Shown here one piece after another: positions 1,753 through 31,688 of a DNA stretch of 32,928 nt (within the stretch, counting starts at the first letter, position 1; each line of letters opens with the position of its first letter). The notes beneath the pieces are model-generated. The model saw only the letters and a program-made list of their open reading frames with translations, ran no database searches and was not told the DNA's origin. The stretch comes from a virus. A program made the translations under genes and the position numbers. The DNA lies in IMG/VR virus record IMGVR_UViG_3300042987_000873, positions 1-32,928 of that record. One strand, given 5' to 3'.

Positions 1753-2553
1753 CTATTCTTGGGTTGTAGGTTTGAACGCCCAGTTGGGCAGGGTCAATTT
1801 CTCGATCGCTGTGCTGTATCCAGGCCATGAGTTGAATTCCTGGCAGGATTTGAAGAACTCGAGCTGCTTGTCGATCTCGGCGTTGCCTTGGTCGATCGCA
1901 GCCTGATCCATCTCGTAGACCGCGCACTCATAGGGTGCTGTCTTCTCGATGGCGATGAACAGGAAGCGCCGCTTGCTTGGGAAGAAGCGCAGATACCATG
2001 CGGCCTGCACATGATACCGAAGCTGGGCGGCAGTCTTGGCGAAGGCAGCCGGGGAGGCGTCCTGGGTCGTCTTGATGTCGGCCAGTGAATCGTATAGCTC
2101 ACGATGATCCGGAAGCAGGTCGATGCGTGCCTTGACCTTGATGGTGTCGAAGGTGTTGAACACGGACACCTCTGTGTCACCGGCGTAGAGGGCCTTCCCA
2201 GCGGCCGGATGGGCCATCAAAGACAGTTTCATGGCCTCGATGGTATCAGCGGTCTCCCGCGTGATGATCGTGGCTCCTGACGCCTGCAGGGCCTCGTAGG
2301 CTTCCTTGCCGGCCTTGGTGCGACGATCACCCTCGAAGATGACGTACCGCTTGGCGTACTCATCCCGCTCGAGGACCGCGCAGTGGAAGGCGGAACCGAA
2401 GACCATGGCAGGAGTTGGCTCCTCCTTGGCTCCTTCCAGCCATGCCTTGTAATGGGCAGGCGAACGCTGGAACTGATCCAGCCCGGACTTCGAGAGGGCC
2501 ACAGTGGCGTGGTACTGCTCGGCCGGCATGTGATAGACCAGATCGGCGCTCAT
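1753..2553 (-). CDS. RecE-like PD-(D/E)XK exonuclease
   Basis: 266 residues. The start ATG overlaps the stop of the upstream annealing-protein gene by four bases (ATGA), so the pair is translationally coupled. The nuclease signature is visible: GSAFH (53-57), KARID with Asp145, ADIKT with Asp159 and Lys161 (the D-x-K pair), and a downstream YHVQ (180-183). This is the order seen in RecE C-terminal / exodeoxyribonuclease VIII-type enzymes, which resect double-stranded DNA from ends to give single strands for the partner annealing protein. The length matches the free-standing phage nuclease domain rather than full-length E. coli RecE. Together with the RecT-like gene upstream and helicase downstream it forms a complete phage recombination module. 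Confidence 0.85.
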   Translation of the reverse strand: MSADLVYHMPAEQYHATVALSKSGLDQFQRSPAHYKAWLEGAKEEPTPAMVFGSAFHCAVLERDEYAKRYVIFEGDRRTKAGKEAYEALQASGATIITRETADTIEAMKLSLMAHPAAGKALYAGDTEVSVFNTFDTIKVKARIDLLPDHRELYDSLADIKTTQDASPAAFAKTAAQLRYHVQAAWYLRFFPSKRRFLFIAIEKTAPYECAVYEMDQAAIDQGNAEIDKQLEFFKSCQEFNSWPGYSTAIEKLTLPNWAFKPTTQE

Positions 2554-3320
2554 CCGACCACCTCCGCAGTCTCGATCTTGGGCAGTTTGGAGAGGATCAG
2601 GTCAGGCTTGCTGATGACCTTGCTGGCCACATCAGTCGGGAGGTCGCGGAAGTTCTGGCCTTCCTTGATCTTTCCGGTGCTGATGAGGAACGCATTGACC
2701 TCTTCCTCACGGGACTCGAACAGGGCCTCGAGCTTGCCGATGACAGCAGAGTCGTCGGCCTTCGTCACAGTGACCCTGGGCGCTTCAGCACCGAAGTCCT
2801 GAGCCTCTTCCGGGGTGTAGATGCCCATGACGACCTCGGGAGCGATCATGCGGATCGCCTTTGAGATCAGTCGGGCGCGGAGCATGGCGGCAGGATCCTT
2901 CTGCCAACCGGAACCCGGCTTCCCGGGATACAGGCCAGCAGCCTTGGCATCGTCGAGCGAGTAGCTGATGTCGATCTCGTTGCCATCGTACTTCCATGTG
3001 GCAGCAGCGATCTTGGCATCGAACTGCTTCCAGATGACCTTGCCCCCCCGGGCACGGTAACCGGCGAGCATGGCGTCAGCCCGCATGGTGGGCTGGCCGT
3101 TGACGAGGTGGTAGGTGCGCTTGATGTCGAAGGGCGACTTCTTCTCCGCCAGGCATTGCATGGCGATGATGTGACCTTGCTCGACCTTGGTGCATCCGAA
3201 CATCCCAGATGAGGAGATCCACTCTCCGAGCTGGGCGATGGCGCTGATGGGTTCAGCGATACGGTCGTAGACCTCATTGGCCGCCGAAGGGGCAGCCACT
3301 GCGAGTTGCATGTTGTTCAT
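2550..3320 (-). CDS. RecT-family-like single-strand annealing protein
   Basis: 256 residues, starting at the ATG at 3320, which overlaps the stop of the HTH gene by four bases. The central region carries features I associate with RecT/Bet-like annealing proteins: a MRADAMLAGYRARGG segment (about 78-92), then MLRARLISKAIR (147-158) followed by PEVVMGIYTPEE (160-171). The C-terminal third is acidic and Lys-rich. Such proteins bind single-stranded DNA and pair it with complementary strands, working with the exonuclease encoded immediately downstream. No catalytic residues are expected. The role is well supported by the pairing with the nuclease; the exact subfamily needs a profile search. Confidence 0.8.
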   Translation of the reverse strand: MNNMQLAVAAPSAANEVYDRIAEPISAIAQLGEWISSSGMFGCTKVEQGHIIAMQCLAEKKSPFDIKRTYHLVNGQPTMRADAMLAGYRARGGKVIWKQFDAKIAAATWKYDGNEIDISYSLDDAKAAGLYPGKPGSGWQKDPAAMLRARLISKAIRMIAPEVVMGIYTPEEAQDFGAEAPRVTVTKADDSAVIGKLEALFESREEEVNAFLISTGKIKEGQNFRDLPTDVASKVISKPDLILSKLPKIETAEVVG

Positions 3321-15508: not shown

Positions 15509-18500
15509 TTAGCCGATGACGGTGACGGTGTAGTTGCTGAGCGTTTGGCTGGATGCAAACGTCACGGTCACACTGTTGGTCGCATAGCTCACGTCGGTCA
15601 ACACCTGAGCGTCGGAACTATCCCTGACCTGCACGATCACATCCTTGGTTCCGAAGTTGTGGGTCACCGTGATGGTCGTTCCAGTTCCAGCTCCGGCTGC
15701 GCTATACTTCCTGCTAATCTGCTGGAACGCGCTGTTGTTGTGGTACTGGAGGGTGTTGCTGGTGCTGTTGTAGTACAGGTCACCCACCGCACCTGTGGGA
15801 GCGGAGGCTAGGCCGGTGAGGTTGAGCTGGCCGGTGGACTTGATGCGGAGGCGTTCTAAACCGGCCGTGTCGTCATAGATCGAGAACTCTCCAGCTCCAG
15901 AAACATAATTTGATCCGATTCTGTAGGTTCTTCCATTTGTCGAAGTCGAAACAAACTGCATTGAACAACCGCCAGTACTGGTCGATGACAACCTAGCCAA
16001 CAAGCCTGTGCTGTTGTCGCGGATGTCCAACCTGTAGCCGGGAGTTGTTCCAATTCCAACATTCCTACTGCTGTCAATATACACCGCATCACTCCCGCCC
16101 ACCGCCAGCGCGAGGGTGTCGTTTCCGGTGGGGAAGTAGAGGCCGGTGTTGGGATCTGCAATGCGAGAGAATGAGGGATTTGAAGCAGTCCCATTCACAC
16201 CGGAAAGGGTGCTTCCTGCCGAGGTGATTCTTAATGATTCAAGCCCTCCAGATGATCCTCTTGTAACGAATACCAAATCATTGCTTGGGGTTGCTTGGCT
16301 TACAAACTGACAATTAACTGATCCGCCAAACAGTCCAGCTGAGTTGTAAAACTCCAGAGATGAAAACGCGTTATCTGTATTGCTGGTGTTTCTTACCCTG
16401 ATTGTCGATCCAGAAACTGGAGGGCTTGTTAAAGCCGTCGAGGAACTAGATTTGTTTATTTCCAGCGGCTGAACTGGTGTAGTGGCACCAACGCCCAGAT
16501 TCCCCGAGGCGTCGAGGGTCATCCTTGGTGATCCAGCAGTAGTGAACTGAATCCGTCGATCCGCATTGGACCCTAGCGAGATACCGACATCGTATGCTCC
16601 GGAACTGTTGGCTTTGTAGACCCCTTGATCTCCTCCACCCACCAGAGAGATGACGCCATTGTCAGAAGTTCCACCGTCGAAGCAGGCAATCGCGTTTGAG
16701 GGAGCAGTGTAGCTCGATGCCGCTGTGCCGTGCTGCTGGACGTTGAGCTTGGAGTTGGTTCCGATTACGGAGGTGCGGTTGACGAGCAGGTTGCCGGAGT
16801 CGGTGATCCTAACTGCATCACTTCCGATTGCTGTGCTGTAGATCCGAAACGTGTCTCCATCCAAACCGGCAAAAAACTTTCCGTCGACTGTCGCACTGTT
16901 AAACCAGATTCCGGCTCCGCCATCAGAATGGCCGAGTTTCATCCGACCATTGGTGATCTTGATGGCCTCTTGATAAGTAAGGTTCCCAGCGACGGTCAGT
17001 TTCCCCGAGGCGTCGAGGGTCATCTTTGGGTCGCCCCAACTAATGTTCGCGTCAGCGCCACTGGTGTTGTTTGCTGCCGTTCTCCAGTAGTGGTTGCCTT
17101 GTTTCTGCCAATACTGACTCGCTTGTCCGTTTGCCAGATACTGCCAAGAGGCTCCGGACGCTCCGACGTAAGCGTTGGCTCCGAAAAAGATTTCGCTCTC
17201 GTTGCCAGCAGAAGCGTATCCAGTGATGCAAGGCCCTTGACCGACCTGTATGGATTTGTATCCGCTGTACCAAACCTTAGGCGTCACCCCCAACCCAAGG
17301 TTGCCGGAGGAGTCCAGCGTGGCGCGTAGCGTCGGAGTTCCACCTCCGTCCGACAAAAACTGCAACACCGAGTTGTAAGCGAACTGCACGGTGCCAGATC
17401 CGTCTCGTATTTGTCGCCAAAAACTGCGTACAGCCCCATTGTCCGAAAGCTGAACCTGCGAGTAGTTTGACGCGCTCACTCCAGCATTCTGACTATTAAC
17501 TCGAAGCGAAACAGAGGCGTCTGTGCTGTTTACTTCGGTGTTTACGTTTGGTGATGACGTCCCGATGCCAAGGCGGTTGTTCGAGTTGTCCCAGAACAGA
17601 TTCGAGGAGAAGCCTATGCTGTTCGCGGTAGGGGTGTTTGAGCAGAACGGAATCTGACCCTCTGTGTAGGCGGTCGACTTGGCGAAGTGGAACACCCCAC
17701 CAGACAGCACCATGCCGTTGCCTGCGGTGTAGGAACCGGCTTGGGAGAACTTAACGAATGGAACCGGAGTCGTCCCAAGCGTTCCACCTGCATTGGCCGT
17801 ACAGACCCAGCCAGAATCCGCATTCGCAGTTCCGGTCTCGATGAACGTGAACGCACCAACCAGCTCGTCCCAAGTGTTGGCATCCAGCGAACGGGTCATT
17901 GCCGAAGACGGACCTTGCCAGATATAGATGCCGTTCTGCTGCGACAGGCTCTGATCCTTCACCAAGATGCGGGTGGTGCCGCTGGTGAAGGTTGCCGGAT
18001 CAATGCCGTCGATCAGCCCAGATCCGGGTGCGCTCAGGTTGATGTCCGCCGTGGACGCCACCAAGCAACTCGCCTTGATGTCCAAACCTTGAGCGACAGA
18101 GTCAACATATCCCTTGGTGGCCAGCGTGGAGCCAGACGATCCGGATGTGACGTTTCCGCTGTTGATGATGTTGAACCCAGCGATGTCCAGATCCGCAGTC
18201 AGAGCGCCGAATCCGGTCAGCGAGATCGAGGACTTGGCAGTGGCTGCAGGATTGTTGGACGCATCACCGACATAGAACTGGCCCGTAGCCAACGCCAGAC
18301 GAGCCAACGGCAGCAGACCGCTTGTGATGTTTGCAGCGTTGGTCGTGTCGGTCGTTGCCGAAGCGGCCAGTCCAGAAACAGAGCCAGCAGGAATCGAAGC
18401 GGACCACTTTGGCTTCGTATTAATTCCGTCGTAGGTGAGGATGTATCCATCCGTTCCAACGCCCAGCTTGGCAGTCGTCGCAAGACCGCTCTGGTAGAGA

Positions 18501-25347: not shown

Positions 25348-26829
25348 TTATCCGCCGACCTCACAACCTACAAGCGCACCCTCATCGCCGCCTTCCAGAG
25401 GGCCAATCTCATCCTCCATGCGTTCCAGGAGGCTACGTCCGTCTTCACCGAGTGCTTTCATGTACTCGTCCATGCGTTTACCGCCTCCACCACAGAACGC
25501 CAGCACCATGGCATCGGCCCGATCTGGTGACGCGATGCCTCTGGCCCTCAATTCATCCTTGGATTCCAGCGCCAACTTGCCTTTTCCGTTGGTCCGGACC
25601 TTCCGGGTGATGAACTGGTTGATCAGGATGTCGTCATTGCCTGCCGGACCCAGATTGATCTCGTTCTTCTCAACGGATCGGCCGAATTCGATCCACATCT
25701 CGGCTCCCCGGGACACAAACTGGTCATCTCGGATGGCTTTCTCGCCGAAATTGACCCGGCGCACGTCCCAACCCTCCTGTTTGAGCGCATCGCACATGAC
25801 AACACCCATGCCGCCGACGTCTGCGTAGATATCCTCGGACTTCAGCCCCCATTTCCGGAACTGATAGATGAATTTCCCAATGGAATTCATGGTATCGCGA
25901 TCCTTCCACGAGATCAGACCCTTCACCGCGTTGCCCTGGCGCACGCAGAGCACGCTTTCGTCGCCACCGGCGGAAAAGTCACAGCCCGCAGTGAGCCGAT
26001 GCGCCTTCTCGTTGCTCTCAGGAGGCTGAGAGACCGATCTCTGCCAGTCCGCAGTCCTGACTGCCGTGAGCGAACCGTCGTCCTCCATGAATTCCGCATA
26101 GATCATGGACCGCACCAGCGGATGGTTCTCGCCCCAACGCTGAAACTGCTCGTCGATCCAGTCCTTCTTGATGTGCGGACAGTCGAATGCGGTGACGGTG
26201 AAGGTCTTCCAGCGGCCGTCGTTGCGTCGGAACACTTCGTAGAAGTAACCCCCGGCGCCTCCCGGGCTGGACATCATCAGAACCCGGCTGGGCTGACAGC
26301 GTTCCATCGACTGGAAGATGCCATCGGGCACCGCCTTGGCCTCGTCGATGATGTAGAGCAGGTTGTTGGATGGTCCTTGGCAGTGCCAGCCTTCTGCCTT
26401 CTCAGGGTTGGACGCCGAGAACCCGATGCAGCGGCTTTCCTCGCCCGGCTTGCAGCCGGCTCTCAAGTAAGTGATCTCACCGTCGATGACCTTGAACCCG
26501 GAATCAGGTCCGCCAAGGCCATTGGTGTACCGCTTGATGTACGGCCAGAGGGCGTCGGCCACCTGACGATAGACGCCGGCGGTGCAGACGCAGAGTGCGC
26601 CCTTGAACATGACCAGGTGCCACACCACAGCTGCTGCTGCGACGATGCTGGTCTTGCCGGAGCCGTTGGCTGCCTTGAGCGCCACCCTGGAATGCTTGGC
26701 GCACAGGGCGTCGAGCACGTTCTCCTGCCATGGATACACCTCGAGGCCCAGCATGAGCTTCGGGAAGTTCCGCAATTCGCTCGCCTCTTCGATGAGCTTC
26801 TTGCGTTTCCATGCCGGCATCTTGCTCAT
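25348..26829 (-). CDS. terL: Terminase large subunit
   Basis: 493 residues, the usual length. The ATPase domain has Walker A AANGSGKT (53-60), Walker B LLYIIDE (157-163) with catalytic Glu163, and coupling motif MMSSPGG (185-191). The nuclease domain shows Asp284 (GCDFSAGGDES), Asp337 (YADVGGMG) and a late PDRADA (Asp436/Asp439), the three metal-binding acids of the RNase H-like headful nuclease. The enzyme cuts concatemeric DNA and pumps it into the procapsid through the portal encoded next. The start ATG overlaps the preceding micro-gene stop (ATGA). Confidence 0.93.
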   Translation of the reverse strand: MSKMPAWKRKKLIEEASELRNFPKLMLGLEVYPWQENVLDALCAKHSRVALKAANGSGKTSIVAAAAVVWHLVMFKGALCVCTAGVYRQVADALWPYIKRYTNGLGGPDSGFKVIDGEITYLRAGCKPGEESRCIGFSASNPEKAEGWHCQGPSNNLLYIIDEAKAVPDGIFQSMERCQPSRVLMMSSPGGAGGYFYEVFRRNDGRWKTFTVTAFDCPHIKKDWIDEQFQRWGENHPLVRSMIYAEFMEDDGSLTAVRTADWQRSVSQPPESNEKAHRLTAGCDFSAGGDESVLCVRQGNAVKGLISWKDRDTMNSIGKFIYQFRKWGLKSEDIYADVGGMGVVMCDALKQEGWDVRRVNFGEKAIRDDQFVSRGAEMWIEFGRSVEKNEINLGPAGNDDILINQFITRKVRTNGKGKLALESKDELRARGIASPDRADAMVLAFCGGGGKRMDEYMKALGEDGRSLLERMEDEIGPLEGGDEGALVGCEVGG

Positions 26830-30553: not shown

Positions 30554-30792
30554 AGCCCAGCCTCCACCAGATCCCTGTCCAGGAAACAAGGCGTCCTGTC
30601 ACCCACCCACGCCCCCAACTGGTTGAACTCATACCACTCCAACGCATCCTCACGACTACCCATCTGCTCCTCCAACTTGGCCAGCACCTTGTCCTTGTCG
30701 TAACACACAATCGGCTCAGCACCGCACCGCTCCACCAAGCCAGCAATGCAGTCGTCAAAACCGTCCATCTTCAGTAGGCCATCCACACTCAT
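30550..30792 (-). CDS. Hypothetical small acidic protein
   Basis: 80 residues from the ATG at 30792 with an SD (GGAGG) eight bases before. MSVDGLLKMDGFDDCIAGLVERCGAEPIVCYDKDKVLAKLEEQMGSREDALEWYEFNQLGAWVGDRTP is a mixed alpha/beta protein. The segment with VCYDKDKVLAKLE..GM..EALEWYEFNQLGAWVG is a pattern I recall from small phage-encoded proteins of unknown function. It contains three cysteines. It is coupled on both sides by ATGA overlaps. Confidence 0.65.
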   Translation of the reverse strand: MSVDGLLKMDGFDDCIAGLVERCGAEPIVCYDKDKVLAKLEEQMGSREDALEWYEFNQLGAWVGDRTPCFLDRDLVEAGL

Positions 30793-30995
30793 GCCTTGGC
30801 CCTCCTACCCGCACGCCCACGCTTGAAGTTCAACACCCGACGCTCCTCCAACGCCCTCAGCTCCTCAGCAAACGCCGGATCCGCTAGCCCACGCCGCCGC
30901 AGCCACGCACGATACTTCTCGTTGAAATACTCCTGGCTCATACCCGGATCCGCAGGACCCACGTCGGCCACCCTCTGCACAGTCATCTTGCCCAT
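30789..30995 (-). CDS. Small basic hypothetical protein, first of accessory train
   Basis: 68 residues from the ATG at 30995. The protein is helical and ends in a very basic tail (RRVLNFKRGRAGRRAKA), so it may bind nucleic acid. PGMSQEYFNEKYRAWLRRRGLADPAFAEELRALEERR is a predicted helix pair. It is the first gene after the regulatory island at 30996-31214 and lies just downstream of the promoter/operator-like block at 31007-31045. It is coupled to the next gene by a four-base overlap. Confidence 0.62.
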   Translation of the reverse strand: MGKMTVQRVADVGPADPGMSQEYFNEKYRAWLRRRGLADPAFAEELRALEERRVLNFKRGRAGRRAKA

Positions 30996-31045: not shown

Positions 31046-31048
31046 AGT

Positions 31049-31125
31049 GGGGAGTGGGGTGGGGTGGGGGAGGGGGGGCTAAATCTAAACCCACCCCCCC
31101 CGTGGGGGTCCCCCATACCCCGTGG
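31049..31125. other. G-quadruplex-prone / C-rich hairpin tract
   Basis: The plus strand has five consecutive runs of four to seven G separated by one to three bases (31049-31078), a textbook G-quadruplex motif. After CTAAATCTAAA a C-run block (about 31090-31101) can pair back to it. GTGGGGGTCCCCC then adds a further small palindrome. The tract sits in the only sizeable gene-free island (30996-31214) beside the small terminase gene and a parS site. Confidence 0.6.
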
Positions 31126-31126
31126 T

Positions 31127-31179
31127 CAGTTAACGATAGCAATGTTCCACGTGGAACAATGGTGCGTTAGCGTTAACTG
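31127..31179. repeat. Inverted repeat CAGTTAACG ... CGTTAACTG flanking parS
   Basis: Two perfect 9-base arms (31127-31135 and 31171-31179) enclose the first parS-like palindrome. The midpoint of the arms is within about three bases of the parS centre. GCGTTA is also directly repeated at 31165-31173. The arrangement looks like a compound protein-binding or replication-related site. Confidence 0.6.
31143..31158. promoter_or_regulatory. Perfect parS-like (ParB-binding) site 1
   Basis: TGTTCCACGTGGAACA is a perfect 16-base palindrome. It matches the chromosomal parS consensus TGTTnCACGTGnAACA, the site where ParB clamps load. It lies in the gene-free island between the small terminase and accessory genes. 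No parA or parB gene is visible in this window. Confidence 0.75.
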
Positions 31180-31214
31180 GTTGCCTTCCTACCCACAAGA
31201 AACGTTATATTGAA

Positions 31215-31688
31215 TCACCGCTCCCGCTCTGCAACCGAGCTAAGTAGCTGGTGCGCAATGGTTAAGGTGCTTCCGCCTTTGCCAACGTGTTCCATGGAAG
31301 CACGGGCGACGTAGCCCCTCGCTCGTTCCAGAAGCCAAGCTGCGCCTTGCCAGCCTTGCGAACCGGTCCGGACGTTGAGCACCAGATCAACCTCCCCCCT
31401 CGATTTGGCCAGTTCAACTTCCTTGGCAAAGTCCGGATGGCGCTGAAGGAATCGAGACCAACCGCCGGACGAAGGCTGGAACCCAACGAGGGGAAGCAAT
31501 CGCTCAACCGGGATCCCGCATTCGATTCCCGCGATCATTCTCTTTTTGTCTTCTTCCTTTAACTGAAGGGCAGGCCTTCCCCTTGGCCTTTTCACCTTCA
31601 CTTCCTTCCCCTCTGTTCCACGTGGAACAACCGCTAGGACATCCGATGTCTGACCCTTCGCCTTGGTGCTCTTCTTCACGCTGCCCAT
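31215..31688 (-). CDS. Terminase small subunit-like protein
   Basis: 157 residues from the ATG at 31688 (an in-frame TTG lies further upstream). The first ~35 residues are Lys-rich and disordered (KKSTKAKG..VKRPRGRP). A helix-turn-helix-like region follows (EEDKKRMIAGIECGIPVERLLPLVG), then HPDFAKEVELAKSRGEVDLVLNVRTGSQGWQGAAWLLERARGYVARASM. That block of a helix, a conserved Trp and a WLLER..R motif is typical of small terminase subunits that recognise the packaging site. It is followed (after a micro-gene train) by the large subunit. A perfect parS-like site lies in the codons of the disordered tail. Confidence 0.75.
   Translation of the reverse strand: MGSVKKSTKAKGQTSDVLAVVPRGTEGKEVKVKRPRGRPALQLKEEDKKRMIAGIECGIPVERLLPLVGFQPSSGGWSRFLQRHPDFAKEVELAKSRGEVDLVLNVRTGSQGWQGAAWLLERARGYVARASMEHVGKGGSTLTIAHQLLSSVAERER
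31614..31629. promoter_or_regulatory. Perfect parS-like (ParB-binding) site 2, inside terS
   Basis: A second exact copy of TGTTCCACGTGGAACA, 471 bases from the first. Here it encodes residues near Val20-Thr25 in the Lys-rich, probably disordered start of the small terminase, where the protein can tolerate it. Two exact 16-base copies in 0.5 kb would not be expected by chance. Confidence 0.72.

Follow-up and report, generated by a model that had tools for sequence, protein, structure and literature searches.

Host-type parS palindromes beside the small-terminase gene of a phage without detected partition genes suggest recruitment of host ParB

Results

Two parS-type palindromes are located at and within terS

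The window, which is the whole stretch of DNA analysed here, is the 32,928-bp IMG/VR virus record IMGVR_UViG_3300042987_000873. Its terminase small-subunit gene, terS (31215-31688, minus strand), encodes 157 amino acids and was recognized by a PHROG 4102 match (E 2.8e-6) that delimits the conserved region at residues 31-139; the homologues in relatives are 84-93% identical. The terminase large-subunit gene, terL (25348-26829, minus strand; 493 aa; PHROG 2, E 2e-34), was used as a query for finding relatives. The two genes are separated by ~4.4 kb in the window clade and adjoin one another in more distant relatives. On the far side of the intergenic region downstream of terS, the first gene is a small conserved one (30789-30995, minus strand) encoding a 68-aa protein beginning MGKMTVQRVADVGP, which was aligned with its homologues in relatives; these are 97-100% identical among themselves. 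Within the intergenic region is an island (31047-31120, no strand assigned) of long G and C runs with G-quadruplex and hairpin potential. Most of the clade shows strong conservation of this island next to the parS site; it could be a terminator, a cos-like site or an origin element.

The palindrome TGTTCCACGTGGAACA occurs exactly twice in the window, and both copies match the chromosomal-type parS consensus TGTTNCACGTGNAACA. Site 1 (31143-31158) is in the intergenic region, 56 bp downstream of the stop codon of terS. A pattern scan showed it to be enclosed by an outer inverted repeat (31129-31177 overall) consisting of GTTAACG at 31129-31135 and GTTAGCGTTAAC at 31166-31177. Site 2 (31614-31629) is located inside terS codons 20-25, where T-GTT-CCA-CGT-GGA-ACA encodes V-V-P-R-G-T ahead of the conserved terminase small-subunit region. 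Neither site was assigned a strand. A preliminary description of this DNA had reported two exact copies of the parS consensus, one inside terS, together with a nearby G-rich island, and all of these features were located again. A scan allowing up to two mismatches to TGTTNCACGTGNAACA detected no further site in the window; one parS-like site with three mismatches is present at 16046. Only ~7e-6 exact copies per window would be expected from the window base composition (hand calculation), and the two observed copies are therefore not attributable to chance.

Partition proteins and tyrosine integrases were not detected in the phage

Profile matches identified an SU10-type portal, RecT and a PD-(D/E)XK exonuclease in the window. 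The two recombination genes are located on the minus strand at 1753-3320, with the exonuclease at 1753-2553 (Pfam DUF3799; PHROG 412, exonuclease VIII) and RecT (Pfam RecT) at 2550-3320. One relative, G008 (38,099 bp), contains a 127-bp terminal direct repeat and was taken on this basis as a complete genome of ~37.97 kb. G008 adds ~4.7 kb that is absent from the window and encodes an AAA_25 protein, a ResIII helicase and a protein that looks RuvC-like by eye and has no Pfam match. In G008 the minimum of the cumulative GC skew is ~2.4 kb away from the parS site, a weak indication, since gene orientation switches at that minimum too.

In domain searches, the window and 23 of 24 relative records were negative for ParB_N, and the window, G000, G006 and G008 were negative for ParA. 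These results agree with the preliminary description, in which no parA or parB gene was visible, and the parA-parB pair expected of a complete ParABS module or a phage-plasmid was not found in the element. One distant relative contains a ParB_N-like domain within a 1692-aa open frame (L199, G017:26406-26642), which was not regarded as a partition ParB because of its size. A tyrosine integrase, as expected of a temperate integrating phage, was found in none of 12 records (the window and 11 relatives, one of them complete) in a search directed at integrases of the tyrosine type. Named control genomes were positive in the ParB_N, ParA and tyrosine integrase searches alike.

Site 1 is conserved between diverging flanks

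Close and more distant relatives were gathered by TerS and TerL searches, and nine records, including the window, were found to cover the gap downstream of terS. Site 1 is present in eight of the nine, which represent five distinct haplotypes, and each relative carrying TGTTCCACGTGGAACA has one site. When the five haplotypes were aligned, all 16 columns of site 1 were invariant, as compared with 24 of 60 columns in the upstream flank and 8 of 30 in the downstream flank. The naive probability of 16 invariant columns at a flank rate of ~0.4 is ~4e-7, a value that is indicative only because the haplotypes, few as well as related, make this a test of modest size. The remaining close relative, L007, has lost site 1 along with its surroundings, indicating that the site is dispensable there; GTTAGCGTTAAC is retained in L007.

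No such conservation was observed for site 2. At this position the relatives encode a different stretch, about LAVGHVVSDGGKEVK in the alignment as compared with LAVVPRGTEGKEVK in the window, and with an unrelated stretch in the relatives the copy looks like a private, recent gain. The preliminary description had asked whether the sites are kept while their surroundings diverge; this holds for the copy at 31143, across five haplotypes, and fails for the private terS copy. The related suggestion that site 2 is under selection at the DNA level in addition to the protein level comes down to a single genome, and a role for the terS-internal copy in the phage family was abandoned given the unrelated codons there in the relatives.

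More distant relatives, in which terS adjoins terL, contain no exact copy of TGTTCCACGTGGAACA, which argues against a tie between parS and the terminase gene as a general feature; several larger relatives with ~75% TerL identity also lack the palindrome. One-mismatch sites, CGTTCCACGTGGAACA, in five of the more distant relatives were considered as additional support. These are located where a protein-coding frame specifies a conserved CSTWND motif, and in one relative that keeps these residues a synonymous change disrupts the palindrome. Because coding for CSTWND explains these matches, and because of the synonymous break, the five were not counted.

The phage site is identical to parS of the probable host phylum

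The closest named phages by TerL (31-33% identity) infect Akkermansia, and a relative with 76% TerL identity is on a contig of a Verrucomicrobiota MAG, so the host is probably a member of the Verrucomicrobiota. Another TerL relative is in a Chloroflexota MAG. Akkermansia phages were also considered as carriers of the site and set aside: Chambord and Chantilly contain none with up to two mismatches, and DTMo-2021a none with up to one.

The sequence GTTNCACGTGNAAC was found in 88 of 145 Verrucomicrobiota genomes. Among the matches listed, the Verrucomicrobiota form is mostly GTTCCACGTGGAAC and is often paired at a distance of 33-135 bp. In 19 of 20 Verrucomicrobiota regions inspected, the 16-mer is inside mnmG, usually as a pair, and an mnmE-like gene is adjacent in several. 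The gene order mnmE-mnmG-rsmG-parA-parB is the classical origin-proximal (oriC) neighbourhood, and the Verrucomicrobiota sites within mnmG were for this reason taken as parS of the phylum. A protein gene in these regions (L305-L324) thus carries the chromosomal centromere within its coding sequence, mostly as close pairs. A parB gene adjoining the host sites was sought by tblastn with a Verrucomicrobiota ParB query, and none was found within ~9 kb, the sites having turned out to be within mnmG. One Verrucomicrobiota ParB contains the canonical motifs, GERRWRA for binding CTP and GKSR...N...G for reading parS, residues whose roles have been described for ParB (PMC7383237). The comparison with host parS that the preliminary description had called for yields a letter-for-letter match over the 16-mer, an identity that is conditional on the probable host phylum.

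parS sites are frequently intergenic in viral contigs

Each of TGTTCCACGTGGAACA and the other common parS form, TGTTTCACGTGAAACA, was found in at least 120 IMG/VR contigs. Control palindromes were found in 0, 54 and 33 contigs, of which the first overstates the contrast and the other two are closer controls. Raw contig counts are a weak comparison because the parS totals are known only as at least 120, and the proportion of sites that are intergenic is more informative. Taking intergenic to mean outside any frame of at least 60 aa, a definition that relies on crude gene calls, 50 of 127 TGTTCCACGTGGAACA sites (39%) and 69 of 145 TGTTTCACGTGAAACA sites (48%) among the matches listed are intergenic, as compared with 1 of 54 (2%) and 0 of 33 (0%) for the two close control palindromes (Fisher p ~1e-8 each versus parS). 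Frames leave ~11% of the DNA uncovered in the first parS set, among the matches listed. Multi-copy loci number 4 and 17 for the two parS forms among the matches listed and 0 for the controls. ParB_N was detected in one of the 47 larger TGTTCCACGTGGAACA records among the matches listed, leaving 46 without, and a clear ParA likewise in one of these 47. A tyrosine integrase was found in 0 of the same 47 records as against 4 of 32 controls, a difference in the direction of depletion from a small comparison unmatched for completeness. The IMG/VR set may include some plasmids or misassigned records.

Genes beside intergenic viral parS sites encode a head protein, terminase, sheath or proteins of unknown function. 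A general link between parS and terminase was considered here also and rejected, since the neighbours are mixed and those that recur seem to come from related contigs. Among 20 named phages examined, Alcaligenes phage vB_Af_QDWS535 contains a perfect parS, located within a single short annotated frame of a gene-poor region; in Pelagibacter phage HTVC027P, an intergenic parS with one mismatch is ~0.6 kb from terS. Several contigs exhibit more elaborate arrangements. One contains five exact TGTTCCACGTGGAACA copies over 6 kb, mostly between genes (L182:4324-10457), and others contain 3-5 exact TGTTTCACGTGAAACA copies within ~1 kb (L373, L400, L409 and L419). In one contig family (L126 at 310-349, L148, L176, L185 and L186) TGTTCCACGTGGAACA and TGTTTCACGTGAAACA are located side by side, and the L126 pair is just upstream of the terminase large-subunit gene.

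Discussion

Site 1 is probably a functional parS of the host-chromosomal type, kept so that host ParB can bind the phage DNA in trans. The exact match to host parS, the conservation of the site while its flanks diverge, the lack of detected parAB and the intergenic excess are together consistent with recruitment of host ParB by a parS on the phage, and they suggest that a phage without its own ParB borrows that of the host. Our confidence differs among the parts of this proposal: host ParB very probably binds the phage site, and selection on the site is likely to be for ParB recruitment, whereas a function in positioning or segregating phage DNA is advanced tentatively, as a possibility that we hold somewhat short of even. 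By extension from ParB biology, host ParB-CTP would load at the phage parS as a sliding clamp and spread along the adjoining phage DNA, to which it would also recruit ParA and SMC condensin. The phage genome could thereby rely on host ParABS/SMC for the organization, positioning or segregation of its DNA, either while replicating or in an episomal carrier state. Counting against recruitment are the loss of the site in L007, its absence from several larger relatives with ~75% TerL identity, the indirectness of the host assignment, with one TerL relative in a Chloroflexota MAG, and the single site of most phage genomes where the host usually has two. As to the broader proposition that many phages without partition genes, mostly non-integrating, carry one or a few host-type parS sites that draw host ParB (and SMC) onto the phage genome, so that the segregation machinery would be a host factor of general use to phages, we regard the case as evenly balanced.

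Other readings of the site were weighed against recruitment. Replicating phage copies might act as a decoy that titrates ParB off the host origin and stalls host segregation or division, favouring the phage. One or two sites per genome multiplied by many copies would outnumber the few host sites (usually a pair), and the parS mimics of SGI1 destabilize its helper plasmid through the plasmid's partition system (PMC10954446); titration might favour arrays, yet most genomes contain one site, and we consider a decoy unlikely. Less probable still is a local role, in which bound or spread ParB would act on neighbouring genes or on terminase through silencing, a roadblock or the timing of packaging. 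Such a role would be consistent with the position of the site between terS and the conserved G/C-rich element in the window clade, with the one-mismatch parS near terS in the Pelagibacter phage and with the pairs upstream of terL in one IMG/VR family, but neighbours across viral contigs are mixed and the recurrent ones seem to derive from related contigs.

We judge it very unlikely that the palindrome is an operator for some other regulator, encoded by the phage or the host, such as a LexA-like repressor. It is a perfect palindrome within the nested inverted repeats GTTAACG and GTTAGCGTTAAC, and the motif read by Verrucomicrobia LexA, TGTTC-N4-GAACA, has the same half sites; however, the half sites here are separated by N6 instead of N4, so the site does not match that LexA box, and the CACGTG core is identical to the one in parS. 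The occurrence of the same 16-mer as pairs in host mnmG, in the classical parAB neighbourhood, and in phages with unrelated flanking DNA also argues against an operator. That the palindromes are chance or hitch-hiking sequences without function, as the private terS copy and the coding explanation of the distant one-mismatch sites might suggest, is highly improbable given the ~7e-6 copies expected per window and the conservation of site 1 while its flanks diverge. Among these readings we prefer recruitment of host ParB for organizing, positioning or segregating phage DNA, followed in order by a decoy, a local role, another operator and no function.

ParB-parS is among the most widespread bacterial chromosome-segregation systems. 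If recruitment occurs as proposed, a 16-bp DNA site would suffice to engage the segregation machinery, and ParB would be a host factor in infection. A cultured phage with parS would then provide a one-site knock-out test of the effects of ParB/SMC on a foreign replicon, and the perfect site in vB_Af_QDWS535 makes the question testable in a culturable pair. A parS match in a contig need not mean that the contig is chromosomal, and phage genomes may be present in ParB ChIP or Hi-C data.

Centromere sites in phage genomes have precedents in phage-plasmids such as P1 and in extrachromosomal prophages. P1 encodes its own ParA and ParB, whereas neither was found in the window phage; mycobacterial extrachromosomal prophages reportedly also have partition systems of their own. 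The chromosomal ParABS system in its Verrucomicrobiota form shares the identical 16-bp palindrome, often in paired copies, but the host copies are inside mnmG and the phage copy is beside terS in a genome without parAB. SGI1 parS mimics were demonstrated by experiment to hijack the ParABS system of IncC plasmids, with Sci as a helper factor (PMC10954446). SGI1 resembles the phage, as proposed here, in that a mobile element carries parS sites and relies on ParB from another replicon, and the window has parS with no partition proteins found. SGI1 differs in being an integrative mobilizable element that mimics plasmid parS (PMC10954446), whereas the phage site is of the chromosomal type and its binding by host ParB is predicted. 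No paper on host-type parS in phages without parAB was found in the literature covered, which included few subscription journals and no preprints. The SGI1 mimics appear to be the closest precedent for a phage-borne parS; parS itself and hijacking of the SGI1 type are already known, and a host-type parS in a phage lacking parAB appears to be new.
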